NCBI GenBank assembly: GCA_018970945.1
Contig: JAGWVJ010000002.1
Location: 1 to 64,000 of the forward strand
Length of the DNA: 64,000 nt
Reading direction: 5' to 3'
DNA from: Cyanobacteria bacterium REEB417
GTDB lineage: Bacteria > Cyanobacteriota > Cyanobacteriia > PCC-6307 > Cyanobiaceae
Shown piece after piece: positions 1,641 to 56,387 of this stretch. The translations under genes were made by a program, and so were the position numbers. The notes beneath the pieces are model-generated. The model worked only from the letters and a program-made list of their open reading frames with translations, was not told where the DNA came from and searched no databases. Positions within the stretch are counted from its first letter, which is position 1; every line of letters begins with the position of its first letter.

Positions 1641-3101
1641 TCACGACGCCAGCGCCAGGGCGGCCTGCTTGTAGGCCACCTCGACCACTTCCGACAGGGT
1701 CGGGTGGGTGTGCACTTCGTTGACCAGTTGCCTGACGCTCTGGCGCCGGGCCACGGCGTTGCCGATCTCCTGGATCAGATCGGCGGCGTGCAGGCCGTAG
1801 ATGTGGGCGCCGAGGACCTCACCGGTGCCTTTGTTGAACAGCAGCTTCATGAGGCCGTCGCTCTCGAGCTCGGCCAGGGCCTTGGAGTTGGCCTTGAAGT
1901 AGCTGCGCACCACCCCCAGCTCAAAGCCATCGCGGGCGGCCAGCTCCTTGGCATCGGCCTCGCTGAGGCCCACCGAGCTGATCTCGGGGTGGGTGAAGGT
2001 GGCAGCCGGGATCGAGCGGTAATCGATCTGGCGCCCGTGCCCCAGGATGTTGTCGATCGCCACGGCACCCTGCGCAGCGGCGGTGTGGGCCAGCATCATC
2101 TTGCCGGTGACATCGCCCACGGCCCACAGGTGGGGCACCGGCTCATCGCCCACCAGCACCTGCATGCGGTCATTCACGGGAATGAAGCCGCGGTTGGTTT
2201 CGACCCCCACCGCGCCCAGGTTCAGGCTGGAGCTGCTGGGCACGCGGCCGGTGGCCACCAGCACGGCATCCACTTCCAGGGTCTCGACCGGTTCGCGGGT
2301 TTTCATCTCCACCAGCTCGATCGTGACCGGGCAGCCGGGGGTGATCGTCTGAGCCAGGACGCCAGCGCGGGCGTCGATGTCGCGTCCGTCGAGCAGGTGG
2401 CGTGCGGCGATCTTGGCGATGTCGGGGTCAAAAGTGGGCAGCACCCGATCGAGGGCCTCGATCACGGTGACTTCGCAGCCCAGGGCGGTGTACACATCGG
2501 CGAACTCAAGGCCGATGTAGCCGCTTCCGATGATCGCCAGCCAGCGCGGCAGCCACTCCAGGTTCACCGCCTCGTCGCTGGTGAACACGGTGCGGCCGTC
2601 GGTCTCGATGCCGGGGGGCACAAAGGGTTCGGAGCCCGTGGCGATGATCACCTCCTTGGCGCGGTAGGTGCGCTCAAGGCCGCTGCCGCTCTCGCGCACC
2701 ACCACCTGCTGGGGGCCGGCCAGGCGTCCTTCGCCCCGCAGGATCGTGGCGCCGGCCCGCTCGAGGGTCTTGGTGAGGTTGGCGCGGATGGTCGCGACCA
2801 GCTGGTTGGCGTGGTCAGCGATCTTCTGGCGTTCAAAGCGCACCGGCCCGGCGTGGATGCCGAACTGGGCCAGGTGCTGCCTGTCGGCCAGCTCGCGCAC
2901 GCGGCCGCTGGCGGCCAGCAGGGCCTTGGAGGGCACGCAGCCGCGGTTGACGCAGGTGCCGCCCATGTCGCGGCTTTCGACGATGGCCACCTTGAGGCCG
3001 TGTTCGCAGCCGTGCTTGGCCGCATCGAAGCCGCCGTAACCGGCCCCGATCACGAGCACATCGAAATCAAAGCTGCCGTCGCTCACGGGCCCCGGATGCA
3101 T
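1641..3101 (-). CDS. lpd: Dihydrolipoyl dehydrogenase (E3)
   Basis: FAD flavoprotein that reoxidises dihydrolipoyl groups of 2-oxoacid dehydrogenase complexes and the glycine cleavage system with NAD+. The 486-residue length is normal. It has an N-terminal Rossmann motif VIGAGYGG (residues 18-25), the redox disulfide GGTCVNRGC (Cys50 and Cys55), a second NAD-binding motif IGSGYIGLEFA, and the C-terminal dimerisation region ending in HTHPTLSE, which supplies the catalytic His-Glu pair. The frame stays open further upstream into the methyltransferase gene, but the ATG at 3101 gives the family-like N-terminus and shares one base with the TGA of the upstream gene, so translation is likely coupled. 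Confidence 0.95.
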   Translation of the reverse strand: MHPGPVSDGSFDFDVLVIGAGYGGFDAAKHGCEHGLKVAIVESRDMGGTCVNRGCVPSKALLAASGRVRELADRQHLAQFGIHAGPVRFERQKIADHANQLVATIRANLTKTLERAGATILRGEGRLAGPQQVVVRESGSGLERTYRAKEVIIATGSEPFVPPGIETDGRTVFTSDEAVNLEWLPRWLAIIGSGYIGLEFADVYTALGCEVTVIEALDRVLPTFDPDIAKIAARHLLDGRDIDARAGVLAQTITPGCPVTIELVEMKTREPVETLEVDAVLVATGRVPSSSSLNLGAVGVETNRGFIPVNDRMQVLVGDEPVPHLWAVGDVTGKMMLAHTAAAQGAVAIDNILGHGRQIDYRSIPAATFTHPEISSVGLSEADAKELAARDGFELGVVRSYFKANSKALAELESDGLMKLLFNKGTGEVLGAHIYGLHAADLIQEIGNAVARRQSVRQLVNEVHTHPTLSEVVEVAYKQAALALAS

Positions 3102-3940
3102 CAGTTGCCGGGCATTCTCTCCTGCCGCCAGCGCTCGAGCAGCAGCGGCGCCGCCGCCACCGCCACGTTGAGCGATTCGACGGCATCGCTGTGGGGGATG
3201 CAGACCCGTTGGGTCGCCAGCTCCAGCAGCGGCGCCGACAGCCCTGGCCCCTCGGCGCCCAACAGCACCAGGGTGGGCCGGCGCCAGTCGAGCAGCCAAT
3301 AGGGCCGGGCGCCTGCAGCCCCCGGCGGCACCGCCGCCACCACCTGGTGACCGTCGCCCCGCGCCTGGTTCACCAGCGCGACCACCCCCTGCCGCTCGAG
3401 CCGCCGCTGGGGCAGGGCCAGGGCCGCCCCGGCCGAGGCGCGCAGCACCTTGGGCTGCAGCGGGTCGGCTCCGCCGGCCAGCCACACCTGTTCGATGCCT
3501 GCCGCCAGGGCGGTGCGCAGCAGGGTGCCCAGGTTGCCCGGGTCCTGGATGCCGTCCAGCACCAGCACGAACGTGCTGCCTGGGGCCGGCGGCTCGGGTG
3601 GTTCCAGCGTCAGCACCACCCCATCGGGATGCTCGGTGGTGGCCACGGCGGCCAGCACCGCCTCGCTCACCAGGGTGGGGCCGCTGCCGGGGCGCTCCAT
3701 GCGGGTGGTCAGCTGTGTCAGCAGCCCGGGGTGGGCCTCAGCCCAGGCGGGCGTGCAGAGCAGCTGCCGGGGCTGAAGGTCCAGGCGCAGCACCTCCTGG
3801 GCCAGGTGGGTCCCCTCCAGCAGCACCAGACCAGCCTGCCGGCGACCTGCCGGGGTGTGCAGTTGGCGCAGCTGCCCGACCAGGGGGTTGCGGCGGCTGC
3901 TGATCAGCTGGGGTTCAGAAGGTCTGAACGCGGCGCACAT
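3101..3940 (-). CDS. SpoU/TrmH-family RNA 2'-O-methyltransferase
   Basis: Likely SAM-dependent ribose 2'-O-methyltransferase acting on rRNA or tRNA (RlmB/TsnR-like). The C-terminal SPOUT domain shows all three SpoU motifs: motif 1 LDGIQDPGNLGTLLRTA, motif 2 LLGAEGPGLS, and motif 3 IPHSDAVESLNVAVA. The N-terminal 100 residues look like the SpoU substrate-binding domain (SSRRNPLVGQLRQL start). At 279 residues it is of usual size. The ATG at 3940 would overlap the preceding small gene by 26 nt. Its stop overlaps the lpd start by one base. The exact RNA target cannot be told from sequence. Confidence 0.88.
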   Translation of the reverse strand: MCAAFRPSEPQLISSRRNPLVGQLRQLHTPAGRRQAGLVLLEGTHLAQEVLRLDLQPRQLLCTPAWAEAHPGLLTQLTTRMERPGSGPTLVSEAVLAAVATTEHPDGVVLTLEPPEPPAPGSTFVLVLDGIQDPGNLGTLLRTALAAGIEQVWLAGGADPLQPKVLRASAGAALALPQRRLERQGVVALVNQARGDGHQVVAAVPPGAAGARPYWLLDWRRPTLVLLGAEGPGLSAPLLELATQRVCIPHSDAVESLNVAVAAAPLLLERWRQERMPGN

Positions 3941-43714: not shown

Positions 43715-45325
43715 TCAGGCTTCACGTTCGATCAACAGGAATGAAGGGCCTCGATGTTGCATCGATGCACGAAGCTCACTCTGGATCGTGGTTGCATCCC
43801 GGAGGCAGGCGGTGCGTGCGCCATAGCCGCGAGCGATCGATTCAAGATCAAGGGCCGGATCGTCGAAATCAAGGCCAACAAAACGAGCCTGGTCAACGCT
43901 GATGTTGAGGGCGCCGCACCAGAGATCCTTGAGGATCCGGTATTCACGGTTCACAAAGCAAATGAACACCACGGGGATCTGATACCTGGCGGCACTCCAG
44001 ATCGCGTGGATGGAGAACTGAGCACCTCCATCACCGACGAAACAGACCGAAGGCTGACCGGTCGCGAGTGCCAATCCAACCCCTGATGGCATGGCCCAGC
44101 CAAGACCACCACCACGAGGTGCGAAATGGACGTTGCTGAAGCCAAGTGCAATGGCCATCCGCTGCACCAGTGCATCCTCGGATGAGCCTTCCGTAATCAG
44201 ATGGCAATCGCGCGGTAGCTGTTGCAGAAGATCCAGAATCAGGGCATCACTGGCATGGGTGCCCTCAGCGGGATACTGTGCCTGGAGTTCAGCCAACACC
44301 GCAGCGCCATCGTGATGAGAGGGTGAATCAGCAGGAGCAGCGAGTTGATCAACCAAGGCCTTCAAACAGGCATCCACATCTCCCAGCACAGCAAGGTCGC
44401 AGGGGTAATCGAAACCGAGTTGACGCGTCGATGGCGCGAGATGGTAGATCTTCAGGCTCGCCGGGATCGCCTGCACACCATTGAAAGTGAACGTGTCGAT
44501 CTTCTCGCCCAGCAACAGCAAGCGGTCATAGTGGCTCAGAGTCGAACGGATCTCTCGAGTGGTGGCGGGCAACTGACCCTTGTAACGAGGATGTAGGGGG
44601 TTAACAACACCCTGAACATGAAAAGGGGCCGAATACACATCGGCTCCGAGGCAAGAAGCCAGCCGGCTGAGATGTTCAACGGCATCTGAGGCCCCTACCG
44701 CGTAGTCGGCCACGATCGCCAAAGAACCGGCATCTGATGCCCGCAGGACTTCAGCCAACTGGGAGAGGCCAGCTGGCACAACGTCATCAAGCACGACGGT
44801 ACGGCGCAGACCAACCTCGGCCATGGGTTCCTGCATGAAGTTCATGGGGACCGACAGGAACACAGGACCACTTGGTTGCAGCTGTGCCTGAAGCCAACAA
44901 CGCTGCAATGCGACCGGCAGATCCTCAGCCTGAGCCACCTCAAGGCTGTACTTGGTGGCCGTTTCCGCCATCTGTGCATTGGGCGCACCAAGCACGGGAC
45001 TGTGAATCAGAAATCAGGAATCCTGTTGGCCATTGATTACAAGCAGTGGCACGCCGGAGAGAAGAGCATTGCGCATGTTGAACAGACCGTTCGCCAGACC
45101 CGGGTAGGTGTGAAGACTGACCATCGCGGGCTTACGTGTCAACATGGCGTACCCCGCAGCAATGCCGACGGCTGTCGATTCGTGCAGTGCCAGCAGATAT
45201 TGAGCCTTGGATCGGCCTACGGCATCAAGAAAAGTGGTTTCAGTGGTACCAGGATTGCCAAAGACGTATGAGATTTCGTGAAGATCAAGAAAGTCGCGGA
45301 TCAGATCGCCACCTGTGTACGCCAT
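43715..45325 (-). pseudogene. Thiamine-diphosphate decarboxylase (benzoylformate-decarboxylase-like) with in-frame TGA
   Basis: Upstream part (45325-45017) has GNPGTTETTFLDAV, catalytic Glu in LLALHEST and ends GQQDS; a TGA at 45016-45014 follows. The same frame goes on without shift: FLIHSPVLGAPNAQMAETATKYS, the central domain, and the C-terminal ThDP/Mg motif GDGGAQFSIHAIWSAARYQIP...NREYRIL. Relatives of this family read GQQDTR at the break, so an Arg codon CGA changed to TGA is the simple explanation. Without the stop the gene would make ~536 aa, normal length. A GTG at 44995 could restart the C-terminal part, but that lacks the catalytic Glu. The start may also be ATG 45343. Confidence 0.85.
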
Positions 45326-45343
45326 GCAAGTTGCGTCGAGCAT

Positions 45344-45624: not shown

Positions 45625-46994
45625 GAGGCTGCTGAAAAAGCCAGTCACCTGCGGGAGAATGGCGCAACGGCACTGAGTGGATGCGCGGCCAGCAGGAACG
45701 CACCGGTCCCCTGTTCTCGTACATCTCCACAGAAGACCGGATCCCGGTCAGTCATCCCCTGCGACAGGTGCGGCGGCTGGCGGATCAAGCCCTGGATCGG
45801 CTGAACCCCACCTTCTGCAGGCTGTACCCCGAGGGCGGCCGCCCCTCAATCCCACCCGAGCAGCTGCTGCTGGCCTTGTTGCTACAGGCGATCTATGGCA
45901 TCCGCTCAGAGCGGATGCTCATGGAGCAGCTGGACTACAACCTGCTGTTCCGCTGGTTCGTTGGCCTCAATCCCGACGATCCCGTCTGGCATCCCACCAC
46001 ATTCACCAAGAACCGAGACCGGCTGCTCAATGAGGAGCTCATGGCCAAGTTCCTCGAACTCCTGCTGGCTGCGCCTGAGGTCAAGCCTCTGCTGAGCTCA
46101 GAGCACTTTTCGGTCGATGGCACCCTGCTGCGGGCCTGGGCATCCCACAGCTCGCTGGAGCGCATCGATGGCCTGGACGACGGTCCGCCTCCACCCAGTG
46201 GTGGCAAAGGATTCGGCGTCAACACCTCCGGCAAGAAGCGTGCCAAAGGCGACTTCCGCGGTCTGCTGCTCTCCAATCAGACCCACCGTTCCAGCACCGA
46301 TAGCGAGGCCCGGCTGTTCAAAAAGGCTCCTGGTGTTGGTGCCTTCCTGAGCTTCATGGGGCATTGCGTCATGGAGAACCGCAACGGCTTGGTGGTGGCC
46401 AGTGAGGTCACCCAGGCCAACGGCACCGCCGAGCGTGATTCGGCACTGCGTTTGGCACGCTCACTGAGCGGCGCTCATCAGAAAACCCTCGGAGCTGACA
46501 AGGGTTACGACACCCGGGATTTTGTGGCTGACCTGCGCATCAGCGGCATCACCCCGCATGTCGCTCAGAACAGCAGCCGGAGCGGTGGATCAGCGATTGA
46601 TGGTCGGACTGCTCGTCACGTGGGTTACGCCCAGTCGATCAACGCCAGAAAGCGGATCGAGCAGGTCTTTGGCTGGATCAAGCAGGCTGCCGGACTCCGG
46701 CAGCTCAAGGCCCGAGGCCGAACCAAGGTGGGAGCGGTATTCCGGTTGCACGTGGTGGCCTACAACCTGATCCGGATCAGCAACCTGCTCAGAGCCCAGA
46801 GTCAGCAGGAGGCGATGGCATGAACGCGCCGATCAAGGAGTCATTGGTCCTGGAGCGCAGGACTGAGGACGGCCAATCGAGCCTGGAAGCGGTGCATGCG
46901 AGCCGCAGAGGACAGGTCAACCGGATTGACGTGCTCTGCTGACGGTCACGAACAGGGCAAGGCCATTGGCTTTCGTCGCTTTTTCAGCAGCCTC
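45625..46994 (+). mobile_element. IS5-family insertion sequence, 1370 bp
   Basis: Complete element: terminal inverted repeats GAGGCTGCTGAAAAAGC (45625-45641 and, reversed, 46978-46994, 17/17 identical), one intact transposase gene, and a TTAG target duplication. Perfect ends and an open transposase frame suggest a recent and possibly active insertion. Confidence 0.93.
45681..46823 (+). CDS. IS5-family DDE transposase
   Basis: 380 aa. N-terminal DUF772-type domain (PLRQVRRLADQAL, GRPSIPPEQLLLALLLQAIYGIRSER), then the DDE catalytic core: Asp146 in HFSVDGTLLRAW, Asp273 in GADKGYDTRDF and Glu327 in RKRIEQVFGWIKQAAGLRQ, with the Y-(2)-R-(3)-E-(6)-K-like spacing of IS4/IS5 enzymes. A His/Gly-rich linker with GKKRAKGDF lies between. 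Reading frame intact. Confidence 0.93.
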   Translation: MRGQQERTGPLFSYISTEDRIPVSHPLRQVRRLADQALDRLNPTFCRLYPEGGRPSIPPEQLLLALLLQAIYGIRSERMLMEQLDYNLLFRWFVGLNPDDPVWHPTTFTKNRDRLLNEELMAKFLELLLAAPEVKPLLSSEHFSVDGTLLRAWASHSSLERIDGLDDGPPPPSGGKGFGVNTSGKKRAKGDFRGLLLSNQTHRSSTDSEARLFKKAPGVGAFLSFMGHCVMENRNGLVVASEVTQANGTAERDSALRLARSLSGAHQKTLGADKGYDTRDFVADLRISGITPHVAQNSSRSGGSAIDGRTARHVGYAQSINARKRIEQVFGWIKQAAGLRQLKARGRTKVGAVFRLHVVAYNLIRISNLLRAQSQQEAMA

Positions 46995-53229: not shown

Positions 53230-53916
53230 ATGAATTCCAGCCCTGACCAGCCCCAGCCAGCGGCAGACCCGTCGCAGCCCTATGCCCTGCTCGGCGTCTC
53301 GGCAGACGCGAGCTTTGAAGAGGTTCAGGCCGCCAAGCTGGCGCGTCTGGCCGAGGTGGGCGAGGCGCCGCTCGAGAAGGCCCGCATCGAGGCCGCCTAC
53401 GACGCCGTGTTGATGGAGCGCCTCAAGGAGCGCCAGCAGGGTCGCCTCAGCACCGCCGCCCGCACGGCATCGGCCCGCGAACAGCAACGGGCTGCCGCAC
53501 CGGCCAAACCGGTGTTGCCCTCCTTGCCCCGCCTGGGCGCCCTGCCCCGACCGGCTGGATTGCCCCAGCTGCAGTGGTCGGCCCCCCGGCTCGCCCCCGC
53601 TGCCGATGCCTGGATTCCGCTGGCCGGTGGCGCCGCGTTGATCGCCTTGCTGCTGCTGGTGCCGGCAGCCAGCCCCGAGCTGCTGCTGGCGTTGGCCACC
53701 CTCGGAGCCGTGGTGCTGTTGAAGCGCCGCAGCAACCGCTTCTGGATGTCGGTGGGGTGGGCCTTCGCGCTGTTGGTGGTGGGTCTTGTGGTGGGCGGAT
53801 TGCTGAGCGGCGCCCTCTCCCCTGCCCTGCCCCTGGGACTGCCCCTGACCCTGGCGCAGGTGCAGAGCCTGCCGGCCCTGGTGCTGTTGGCCCTGGGGGC
53901 ATTGCTGATCGCCTAG
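53230..53916 (+). CDS. CPP1-like (DUF3353) J-like membrane protein
   Basis: 228 aa. N-terminal J-like part without HPD (YALLGVSADASFEEVQAAKLARLAEV...RIEAAYDAVLMERLKERQQG), an Ala/Arg/Pro linker, then three to four C-terminal membrane helices (ALIALLLLVPA, LLALATLGAVVLLKRRSNRFW, ALLVVGLVVGGLLSGAL, LVLLALGALLIA). This is the CPP1 (chaperone-like protein of POR1) family of cyanobacteria and plastids, linked to stability of protochlorophyllide oxidoreductase. Convergent with the MerT-like gene. Confidence 0.85.
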   Translation: MNSSPDQPQPAADPSQPYALLGVSADASFEEVQAAKLARLAEVGEAPLEKARIEAAYDAVLMERLKERQQGRLSTAARTASAREQQRAAAPAKPVLPSLPRLGALPRPAGLPQLQWSAPRLAPAADAWIPLAGGAALIALLLLVPAASPELLLALATLGAVVLLKRRSNRFWMSVGWAFALLVVGLVVGGLLSGALSPALPLGLPLTLAQVQSLPALVLLALGALLIA

Positions 53917-53956: not shown

Positions 53957-54340
53957 TCAAAGCCCCAGCAGTCGGGGGAGCACAAAGCTCACCAGCAGCG
54001 CCACGCCGTAGAGCACCAGGGCGATTTGATGCAGCACCCGCGCCCAGGCCCTGGCCCGCCGGCAGCGGCGCGCCAGGGCTGGATCGGCGGGACAGGCGCT
54101 GTGCCGTTGGCGCCGTAGCTGCAGGCTGTTGAACAGCAGCAGGGCACCGGCCAGGCCGAATACCCACCTGGCGTGTTCAGACAGCAGCACCACGCCGGGC
54201 AGCAGCTGGACCAGGGTGGCCACCGCCGATCCTGCCCCCAGCAGCACCAGCAGCGACGGCAGCACGCAGCAGGTCAGGGTGGCCGTGGTCAGCAGCAGAC
54301 CGCTGACCATCCAGACCACCAGGCGGCGCAGCCCGGCCAT
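53957..54340 (-). CDS. MerT-like small inner-membrane metal transporter
   Basis: 127 aa, about four membrane helices. The first helix contains TLTCCVLPSLL, the vicinal Cys pair typical of MerT/MerC-type proteins, and the loop before the last helix carries two more Cys (SACPADPALARRC), the same layout as the cytoplasmic Cys pair of MerT. No other family recognised. Start ATG 54340 shares one base with the TGA of the HMA gene (54340-54342), so the two are translationally coupled. The ion (Hg, Cu, Zn or other) is not known; MerR or MerA genes are not seen in the window. Confidence 0.65.
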   Translation of the reverse strand: MAGLRRLVVWMVSGLLLTTATLTCCVLPSLLVLLGAGSAVATLVQLLPGVVLLSEHARWVFGLAGALLLFNSLQLRRQRHSACPADPALARRCRRARAWARVLHQIALVLYGVALLVSFVLPRLLGL

Positions 54341-54657
54341 CAGCGCGCCGGGGTCGGCTCGATGCTCTGCAGCACGTAGCCAGCCTCCTTGATCGCCTGG
54401 CGGATCGTCTCGGTGTTGCCCCGGAACCCCTCGCCGGTGCGAAGACGTACCGTGCGGGTGGCCATGTCGACGCTGATGTCGCTGATGCCGGGGACGGCCG
54501 AAAGCTTCTTCTGGATTCCCTGGGCGCAGAAGGCACACACCATGCCGTTGATCTTCAGCAGCCAGGTGGTGTTGGTCGCGGCAGCTCCAGTTCCCAGCAC
54601 CAGCAGCGTCAGCAGGCTGCCCAGGAGCAACGATTGCCATGCCATGGGCACGTTCAT
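54340..54657 (-). CDS. Exported HMA-domain (MerP-like) metal-binding protein
   Basis: 105 aa with an N-terminal signal/anchor helix (WQSLLLGSLLTLLVLGTGAAA) and one heavy-metal-associated domain: WLLKINGMVCAFCAQGIQ with CxxC (Cys41 and Cys44), then ISDISVDMATRTVRLR and ETIRQAIKEAGY, the full beta-alpha-beta-beta-alpha-beta scheme. The position before a MerT-like gene parallels merT-merP. Placed in the periplasm by the signal. Confidence 0.85.
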   Translation of the reverse strand: MNVPMAWQSLLLGSLLTLLVLGTGAAATNTTWLLKINGMVCAFCAQGIQKKLSAVPGISDISVDMATRTVRLRTGEGFRGNTETIRQAIKEAGYVLQSIEPTPAR

Positions 54658-54688
54658 GGGTGGGCTGAGTTCATCACGGGATGGGTCG

Positions 54689-55489
54689 TTAGAAGGTGTA
54701 GCGCAGGCTTGCGTGGGGGTGACCTTGCAGGCTGGCCCCCAGCTCGAGCACGTAGCGCCGGTGCAGGAGCCGCAGGGTTGGAATCACCTCCACATCCATG
54801 ATGGTGCCTTGCATCCCCCTCACCTCGACCATGATCCAGGGTTGAATGCGTTCGTAATTGGCGGCGCTCAGGGCAACGCCGGTCTTGATTGAGGCCTGGT
54901 TGCGGCTGGCGCTGCTCGACTGGAGGGTCCGGGCGCTGATCGCCCCATAGAGGCGCTGGGTCTCTGCGTCGATCTGCACGGCTGCGCTGAGCGCGGCTTC
55001 CTGCAGGTTGGGGTTGGTGCCCACGAGGCTGCTGACGGTGCCGGCCCCCAGGTCGAGCCAGATGTTGGCCTGGCTGGTGCTGCCGTTCCAGCGCCGCAGC
55101 AGGCGGGTGTAGGTCACGAAGCTCCACAGCTCGGCCTGGTCGGCGTTGCCCATGCCGTGGCCGCTGTGCCCTCCACCGCCGGCCGCAGGGTTGGCCCGGC
55201 CGCCGTGGTGGTGTCCGCCACCACCGTCGTCGCTGCTGCCGTCGCCGGTGCCGCCGCTGCTGGTTTCGATCCAGTTGACGCTCAGGCCGAAGCCATCGTG
55301 GGTGGTCACCGCCCGGTTGAGGTCGGCCGTGCTCCAGGGGGGGCTGTAGGTGACCTTGAGGGTCGTGCTGTCCATGTAGGCCAGCGGCGCCGCCAGGCTT
55401 GCGGCCGTGGGGGTGGCCGCCATCAAGAGTCCTGTGGCGAGCGCCAGCAGCCGGCGTTCACGAGGGAGCGGTGGCCGGATCAAATTCAC
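54689..55489 (-). CDS. Predicted outer-membrane beta-barrel with His/Gly-rich metal-binding insert
   Basis: 266 aa. N-terminal signal peptide ([20 protein letters not shown]), then alternating polar/hydrophobic strands to the C-terminus that ends in Phe (HASLRYTF), as in outer-membrane proteins. Residues ~79-114 form a Gly/Ser/Asp loop with [10 protein letters not shown] and [10 protein letters not shown], a probable metal-binding loop. It is in an operon with the HMA and MerT-like genes (31-nt gap) and overlaps the end of hslO by 32 nt. Barrel topology is inferred by eye. Confidence 0.6.
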
Positions 55490-56387
55490 GGATCAGCTGC
55501 TCAAGTTCATCCCCACCAACCTGGTACACCTCGTTGCAGAAGTGACAGGTCAGTTCGGCCTGGCCATCCTCGGCCAGGATCGTGCTGAGTTCATCAGGGC
55601 CCAGCAGCCGCAGGGCATTGACACTGCGCTTGCGGCTGCAGGGGCAGTGGAAGCTCACGGGTTGGTCGCTGCTGCCATCACCACTGAGGGGCACCGGATC
55701 GAGATCCGGAAAGATGTCGATCAATAGCTGGCGCAGGTCATCGCCGCAGGCGGCCAGGCGGTTGCTGAACCCGCTCACCTCGCGGCAGCGCTCTTCGAGC
55801 AGGGCGACCAGGGCCGGCTCCCGAGCGGCCTTGGGCAGCACCTGCACCAGCACCCCGCCGCTGCAGCGCACCCCCGAGCTGTCGATCTTTTCGCCGACAA
55901 ACACCGCCGAGGGGGTCTGCTCCGAATGGAGCAGATAGGAGGCGACGTCATCGCCGATGCCGCCGCTCACCAGCTCCACAGTGCTGCTGTAGGGCTCGCC
56001 CTCGCCCAGATCCCGCACCACATGCAGATAGCCGGTGCCGGTTGCGGTCCTGAAGTCGAAGCTGTGCTGGCCATCGGCCTGGGGCGTCAGGTCCAGTTCG
56101 AGGCCGGGGTTGCCCACGAAGCCCCGCACGCTGCCATCGCGGCCGGCATCCACCATCAGTCCCTTGAGCGGTCCATCGGAAGCGATGCGCAGGTTGACGC
56201 GGCCATGGGCCACCTTCATGGAGCTGGCCAGCAGCAGTCCCGCGGTCATGGCACGTCCCAGCAGGGCGGTGGTCAGGTACGAGAGCGCATGCCGGCGCCG
56301 CGCATAGCGGCTGGCCACGGTGGTGGTCACCGCCACCAGACGAATGCCGCCGGCGGCGGCGGTGGCGCGCAGCATCCGATCGCTCAT
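55458..56387 (-). CDS. hslO: Redox-regulated chaperone Hsp33
   Basis: 309 aa holdase activated by oxidation. N-terminal domain with [20 protein letters not shown] and the acidic zinc domain at the C-terminus: FHCPCSRKR and [10 protein letters not shown] (CxC...CxxC), which release zinc and form disulfides under peroxide stress. The start overlaps the stop of the upstream ABC gene by 4 nt (ATGA), and its 3' end overlaps the start of the beta-barrel gene. Confidence 0.95.

Follow-up and report, generated by a model that had tools for sequence, protein, structure and literature searches.

Three tightly packed genes were located on the minus strand at positions 53957-55489 of the window (the whole stretch of DNA that was analyzed, 64,000 nucleotides in length), behind hsp33. 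Genes were called using a simple codon model. The three open reading frames (ORFs) had been picked out in an earlier reading of the sequence, and their coordinates, strand, and description were all found to be accurate. The genes, the loop within the first of them, and the flanking genes are as follows.

54689..55489, minus strand: predicted outer-membrane beta-barrel (266 aa; GTG start; signal peptide at about 1-33; C-terminal Phe)
55145..55255, minus strand: Gly/Asp/His-rich loop of the barrel, predicted to be disordered (residues 79-115, strands 3/4)
54340..54657, minus strand: exported HMA-domain protein (105 aa; GMVCAFC; PF00403, 1e-11)
53957..54340, minus strand: MerT-like inner-membrane protein (127 aa; ATG at 54340; three predicted helices)
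55458..56387, minus strand: hsp33 (PF01430, 3.7e-79), preceding the trio; right boundary of the insertion site
53230..53916, plus strand: CPP1-like gene (PF11833, 2.3e-41), left edge of the insertion site

The barrel gene starts with a GTG within the 3' end of hsp33, and its product ends in RYTF. The ATG of the MerT-like gene and the stop codon of the HMA gene overlap by one base. As the same gene set was found in five other Cyanobiaceae and in about 18 Burkholderiaceae, the three ORFs are not a product of chance. The window was said to lack merA and merR, and this was confirmed: no MerR homologue was found in it, and its sole MerA-like gene (1641-3110) was rejected as MerA and identified as dihydrolipoyl dehydrogenase (TIGR01350, 411.8 bits against a cut-off of 408.8).

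In six relatives, two of which belong to the same genus, the CPP1-like gene and hsp33 were directly adjacent and convergent with no trio between them. Thus, the trio is accessory, at a chromosomal site that is itself conserved, and it is probably a stand-alone insert in a few Cyanobiaceae. Its G+C content (0.65-0.71) was the same as that of the flanks. Elsewhere in the window, two adjoining minus-strand ORFs (43715-45343) resemble, by eye, pieces of one gene for a decarboxylase-type thiamine-diphosphate enzyme that a frameshift may have split, and a further ORF (45681-46823) resembles, also by eye, an insertion-sequence transposase.

Properties of the three proteins

The AlphaFold2 model of the barrel, built from seven sequences (pLDDT 74, pTM 0.66), had 12 strands. 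The top matches of this model in a Foldseek search against the PDB were outer-membrane barrels, including PcoB (7pge), KdgM, NanC, and FapF, and the TM-scores were low for all the best matches. PcoB was the third-best match (E 4.7e-4, TM-scores 0.36-0.44); because the matches spanned several outer-membrane barrels, all at low TM-scores, a special kinship with PcoB is unsupported. The structure prediction agreed with the original prediction of a barrel for the 266-aa protein, and the class of outer-membrane barrel is well supported by the model. An assignment to PcoB/CopB by sequence was rejected (no PF05275 hit; hhalign 0.7%). No family in Pfam or NCBIfam was reached at the curated cut-offs, and, judged from these searches, the barrel is an undescribed family.

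The stretch of residues 79-115 that joins strand 3 to strand 4 had pLDDT values below 50 and was predicted to be disordered. Both termini are usually periplasmic in such barrels, and, if this is presumed here, the loop would face outward. The barrel of the window contains GGHHHGG and GHSGHGMG. The His excess (P=0.0026) refers to the window loop alone, in a region chosen after the fact, and 5 His in 27 residues were found in 4 of the 54 called genes of the window. The loop was His-rich in five of the six cyanobacterial homologues (the window and four others), with unrelated sequences; that of L018 was acidic, with no His. The Burkholderiaceae barrels had no loop, and their first strand often had Met-x-Met instead. 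The His-rich loop therefore failed as a general trait of the family, and it was dropped as a defining feature, being variable among homologues, with a His density seen in 4 of the called genes of the window. As the loop varies, it does not define a 'receptor', and it is best read, from the aligned sequences, as a lineage-specific, cyanobacterial addition.

The HMA protein had a hydrophobic segment at its N-terminus and an HMA domain, containing CxxC, above the Pfam cut-off (PF00403, 45.5 against 24.8 bits). Both Cys residues were kept in 25 of 25 homologues. The MerP cut-off was not reached (TIGR02052, 37.4 bits; cut-off 92.55), and the protein was also under the CopZ cut-off.

The MerT-like protein had TCC at 23-25 in helix 1 and C83 and C93 in the loop before helix 3, and Cys 24, 25, 83, and 93 were invariant in the aligned MerT-like sets. 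Its model had three helices with a modest pLDDT (66.6), and the PDB search gave no match. No Pfam or NCBIfam family was reached at the curated cut-offs, and the score against PRK13751 was 16.2 bits (cut-off 150). PF02411 matched only one of seven members (E 0.069), and a PF02411 scan of 24 carrier genomes found none of the trio MerT-like proteins. When the MerT-like profile was compared with that of true MerT (hhalign), the probability was 91.7% (E 7.7e-7), with the CC pairs aligned. The proposed kinship with MerT was thus retained as a distant one with the Cys pattern kept, and the placing of the protein as a distant MerT relative outside PF02411 is supported by the profiles.

This distant kinship and the weak match of the HMA protein to MerP would be explained if the trio were a diverged mer operon for mercury uptake and detoxification. 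However, of the 24 carriers, a single one had a MerA above its cut-off, and there it was on another contig, adjoining its own true MerT. The MerT-like protein is below the PF02411 cut-off, and a barrel of this kind is missing from classical mer operons. Mercury detoxification was ruled out by the lack of MerA, and mercury uptake of this kind, largely refuted, is highly improbable; the non-mercury role originally preferred was upheld.

Distribution and linkage of the trio

The close survey covered Cyanobiaceae and one proteobacterial family. The MerT-like profile matched in 8 of 400 Cyanobiaceae genomes and the barrel profile in 6 of 400, all within the same eight. The barrel and MerT-like genes were adjacent in 6 of 6 barrel-bearing genomes, and the Fisher P for their co-occurrence was 5e-12, which is overstated because related genomes are not independent. 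One of the remaining two genomes had an HMA-MerT pair and no barrel, and therefore the barrel is not always needed; in the other, the match was at a contig end. The barrel-less pair (L004, 6883-7670, in a 3.7-Mb Cyanobiaceae genome) adjoins a divergent sugar ABC permease gene.

The order barrel-HMA-MerT on a single strand was found in the window and L018. In four genomes of another genus, including Vulcanococcus MAGs (L014-L017), the HMA gene was divergent from MerT-barrel, and a MerR gene adjoined the barrel gene. Small DUF3721 proteins adjoin MerR and the trio in these genomes (L014, 7798-8088; L015, 3185-3873; L016, 5571-6232; L017, 7879-8564). Those of the Vulcanococcus-type genomes contain FNCTGAHxMGxxWMPC and a His near the end, and they are possibly metal-binding partners.

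Single-sequence searches with the barrel (40 genomes, 386 genomes, and genome contigs) gave no match; the early phylum-wide searches were of this insensitive type, and barrel homologues were reached by following the MerT-like gene first. The barrel profile was then used against 84,980 genomes and gave one further match, Rubrivivax pictus, in which the barrel, HMA, and MerT-like genes were in the same order as in the window. In the family of this species, taken here as Burkholderiaceae because GTDB places Rubrivivax there, the barrel matched in 19 of 191 genomes, of which one (G920) was weak and probably spurious. Seventeen of the other 18 had the order barrel-HMA-MerT, and in the last the trio was split across two contig ends. 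The neighbor search thus found the gene set kept together in Cyanobiaceae and Burkholderiaceae, as expected for a conserved trio.

The cyanobacterial proteins formed one group in the unrooted trees (99/99 for the barrel and 93/96 for MerT), which fits a single origin of the trio in the sampled cyanobacteria. The plasmids searched had no barrel, and the only MerT-like match was a weak one, in Variovorax, among unannotated genes. No description of the trio was found in the open-access literature.

Copper as the candidate metal

In 13 of 18 Burkholderiaceae carriers, a CusF gene (PF11604) was no more than 6 kb away from the trio, usually directly upstream, and in about 10 it adjoined the barrel gene; the CusF-type neighbor scored 81 bits with PF11604. 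These carrier genomes have 0-5 CusF genes each, and, at about 1.5 copies in 3.7 Mb, a CusF gene would be this close by chance in about 0.5% of cases per genome (about 1e-26 overall). Genes for multicopper oxidase (PF07732/PF07731) were near seven Burkholderiaceae trios and cupredoxin genes near several, and DUF411, CopA-type ATPases, and outer-membrane efflux proteins also recurred around them. CueR was over its cut-off beside the trio of L065. Near three Burkholderiaceae trios (L066, 1739-2653; L067, 218-970; L068, 7755-8648), there was a membrane protein of the MauE type whose N-terminus resembles HMA.

Because of the CusF proximity and the rarity of MerA, copper, or silver with its similar chemistry, is the best-supported metal. 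Since copper genes surround the trio in many Burkholderiaceae, the three genes probably form a path for copper through the cell envelope, carried as an extra by a few picocyanobacteria. The original prediction had named copper, zinc, or nickel as a nutrient metal; copper was backed by the Burkholderiaceae neighbors, and zinc and nickel found no support.

No copper gene was recognized adjacent to the cyanobacterial trios, and CusF was absent from 7 of 7 cyanobacterial genomes. For cyanobacteria, we infer copper by homology. The MerR beside four cyanobacterial trios scored about equally with CadR-PbrR (71.9 bits) and CueR (68.9 bits), both below the cut-off, and a metal-specific operator beside it was looked for and none identified. 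The slightly better CadR-PbrR score is what would be expected if another thiophilic metal (Ag, Cd, or Zn) were the substrate, at least in cyanobacteria, and HMA domains bind several metals. This is quite unlikely, since no Cd- or Zn-specific gene recurs near the trio as CusF does, and copper or silver is the metal of both CusF and multicopper oxidase.

The multicopper oxidase and cupredoxin genes would also suit a role in maturation or buffering of periplasmic copper proteins, with little net transport, in which the trio would supply copper to these neighbors. However, most carriers, including all cyanobacteria, have no such neighbor, and a membrane protein of the MerT kind that carries a Cys pair in a loop suggests movement through the membrane, which makes such a role unlikely.

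Proposed copper route and comparison with known systems

On balance, we favor the trio as a single copper-handling module spanning the envelope, with inward transfer of copper. Copper would cross the outer membrane via the barrel, and in the periplasm the CxxC of the HMA protein would bind Cu(I). MerP passes metal to MerT, and by analogy Cys 24/25 in helix 1 of the MerT-like protein would receive Cu(I) from the HMA protein, after which loop Cys 83/93 would accept it on the cytosolic side for release into the cytoplasm. In Burkholderiaceae, the trio would act within larger copper clusters with CusF, multicopper oxidase, cupredoxin, and an outer-membrane efflux protein, and the cyanobacterial barrel may have gained its loop, usually a His-rich one. 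To what was computed (the three genes, their kinds and linkage, the copper neighborhood in Burkholderiaceae, the fold class of the barrel, and the empty site), this module adds transfer between the proteins and its inward direction, both suggested by analogy with MerP-MerT and with the uptake argument made for PcoB.

Uptake is the favored direction of transport, and efflux is its main rival. In an efflux or copper tolerance system, the parts would work outwards, with Cu(I) gathered by the HMA and MerT-like proteins so that it can be expelled and the barrel serving as the exit channel. The Burkholderiaceae trio is located among copper-resistance genes, and PcoB was treated as an efflux channel in Caulobacter (Khochtali et al. 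2025, PMC12509749). The neighborhood itself gives no direction, as copper clusters contain uptake and efflux parts alike. Against efflux, the MerT proteins established in mer systems are importers, the trio has no energy-coupled pump, and a passive barrel cannot drive metal against a gradient, which was the argument for uptake by PcoB (PMC9210255). Efflux can therefore be considered doubtful.

That the trio is an undescribed three-part copper route across both membranes, i.e., a new barrel family, an HMA carrier, and a MerT-like importer for copper rather than mercury, we regard as an even call. Passage of copper through the cyanobacterial outer membrane has been ascribed to porin-like proteins (reviewed in PMC12292863), and the direction of transport by PcoB is disputed (PMC9210255, PMC12509749). 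If true, the route would provide a dedicated outer-membrane copper entry in cyanobacteria, where only general porin-like proteins are now assumed, and a compact barrel-carrier-importer set with an order conserved in two phyla would be a small model in which both questions could be tested.

PcoB/CopB (PF05275, 7pge) is a 12-stranded outer-membrane barrel (PMC9210255), as is predicted for the trio barrel, and the genes of both lie among those for cupredoxin, CusF, and multicopper oxidase. Both have a disordered, variable, and often His-rich segment, which is the strand 3-4 loop in the trio barrel and the N-terminus in PcoB, where this His/Met-rich segment was required for copper resistance in Caulobacter (PMC12509749). 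The two are nevertheless unrelated in sequence. A search for CopB in 24 genomes carrying the trio or the HMA-MerT pair gave no match, and the mutual exclusion of trio and CopB (0/17 against 4/20, P=0.11) is suggestive and not significant; the two may fill the same slot. A Burkholderiaceae genome with CopB instead of the trio had it near cupredoxin and CusF genes (L074, L075).

The MerT-like protein shares with MerT the CC in helix 1 and a Cys pair before helix 3, and its three predicted helices would be a further likeness. It differs in the spacing of the loop Cys (C-x9-C against C-x5-C in MerT), in scoring below the Pfam and NCBIfam cut-offs, and in having copper genes rather than merA as neighbors, and the trio would show a transporter of the MerT kind in use beyond mercury resistance. 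The HMA protein, like MerP and CopZ, has a single HMA domain with GMxCxxC, and MerP is likewise exported, whereas the trio protein is under the cut-offs of both. As in PcoABCDE/CopABCD, an outer-membrane barrel, a periplasmic copper carrier, and an inner-membrane transporter would be combined in one cluster, with all three parts of the trio drawn from other families.
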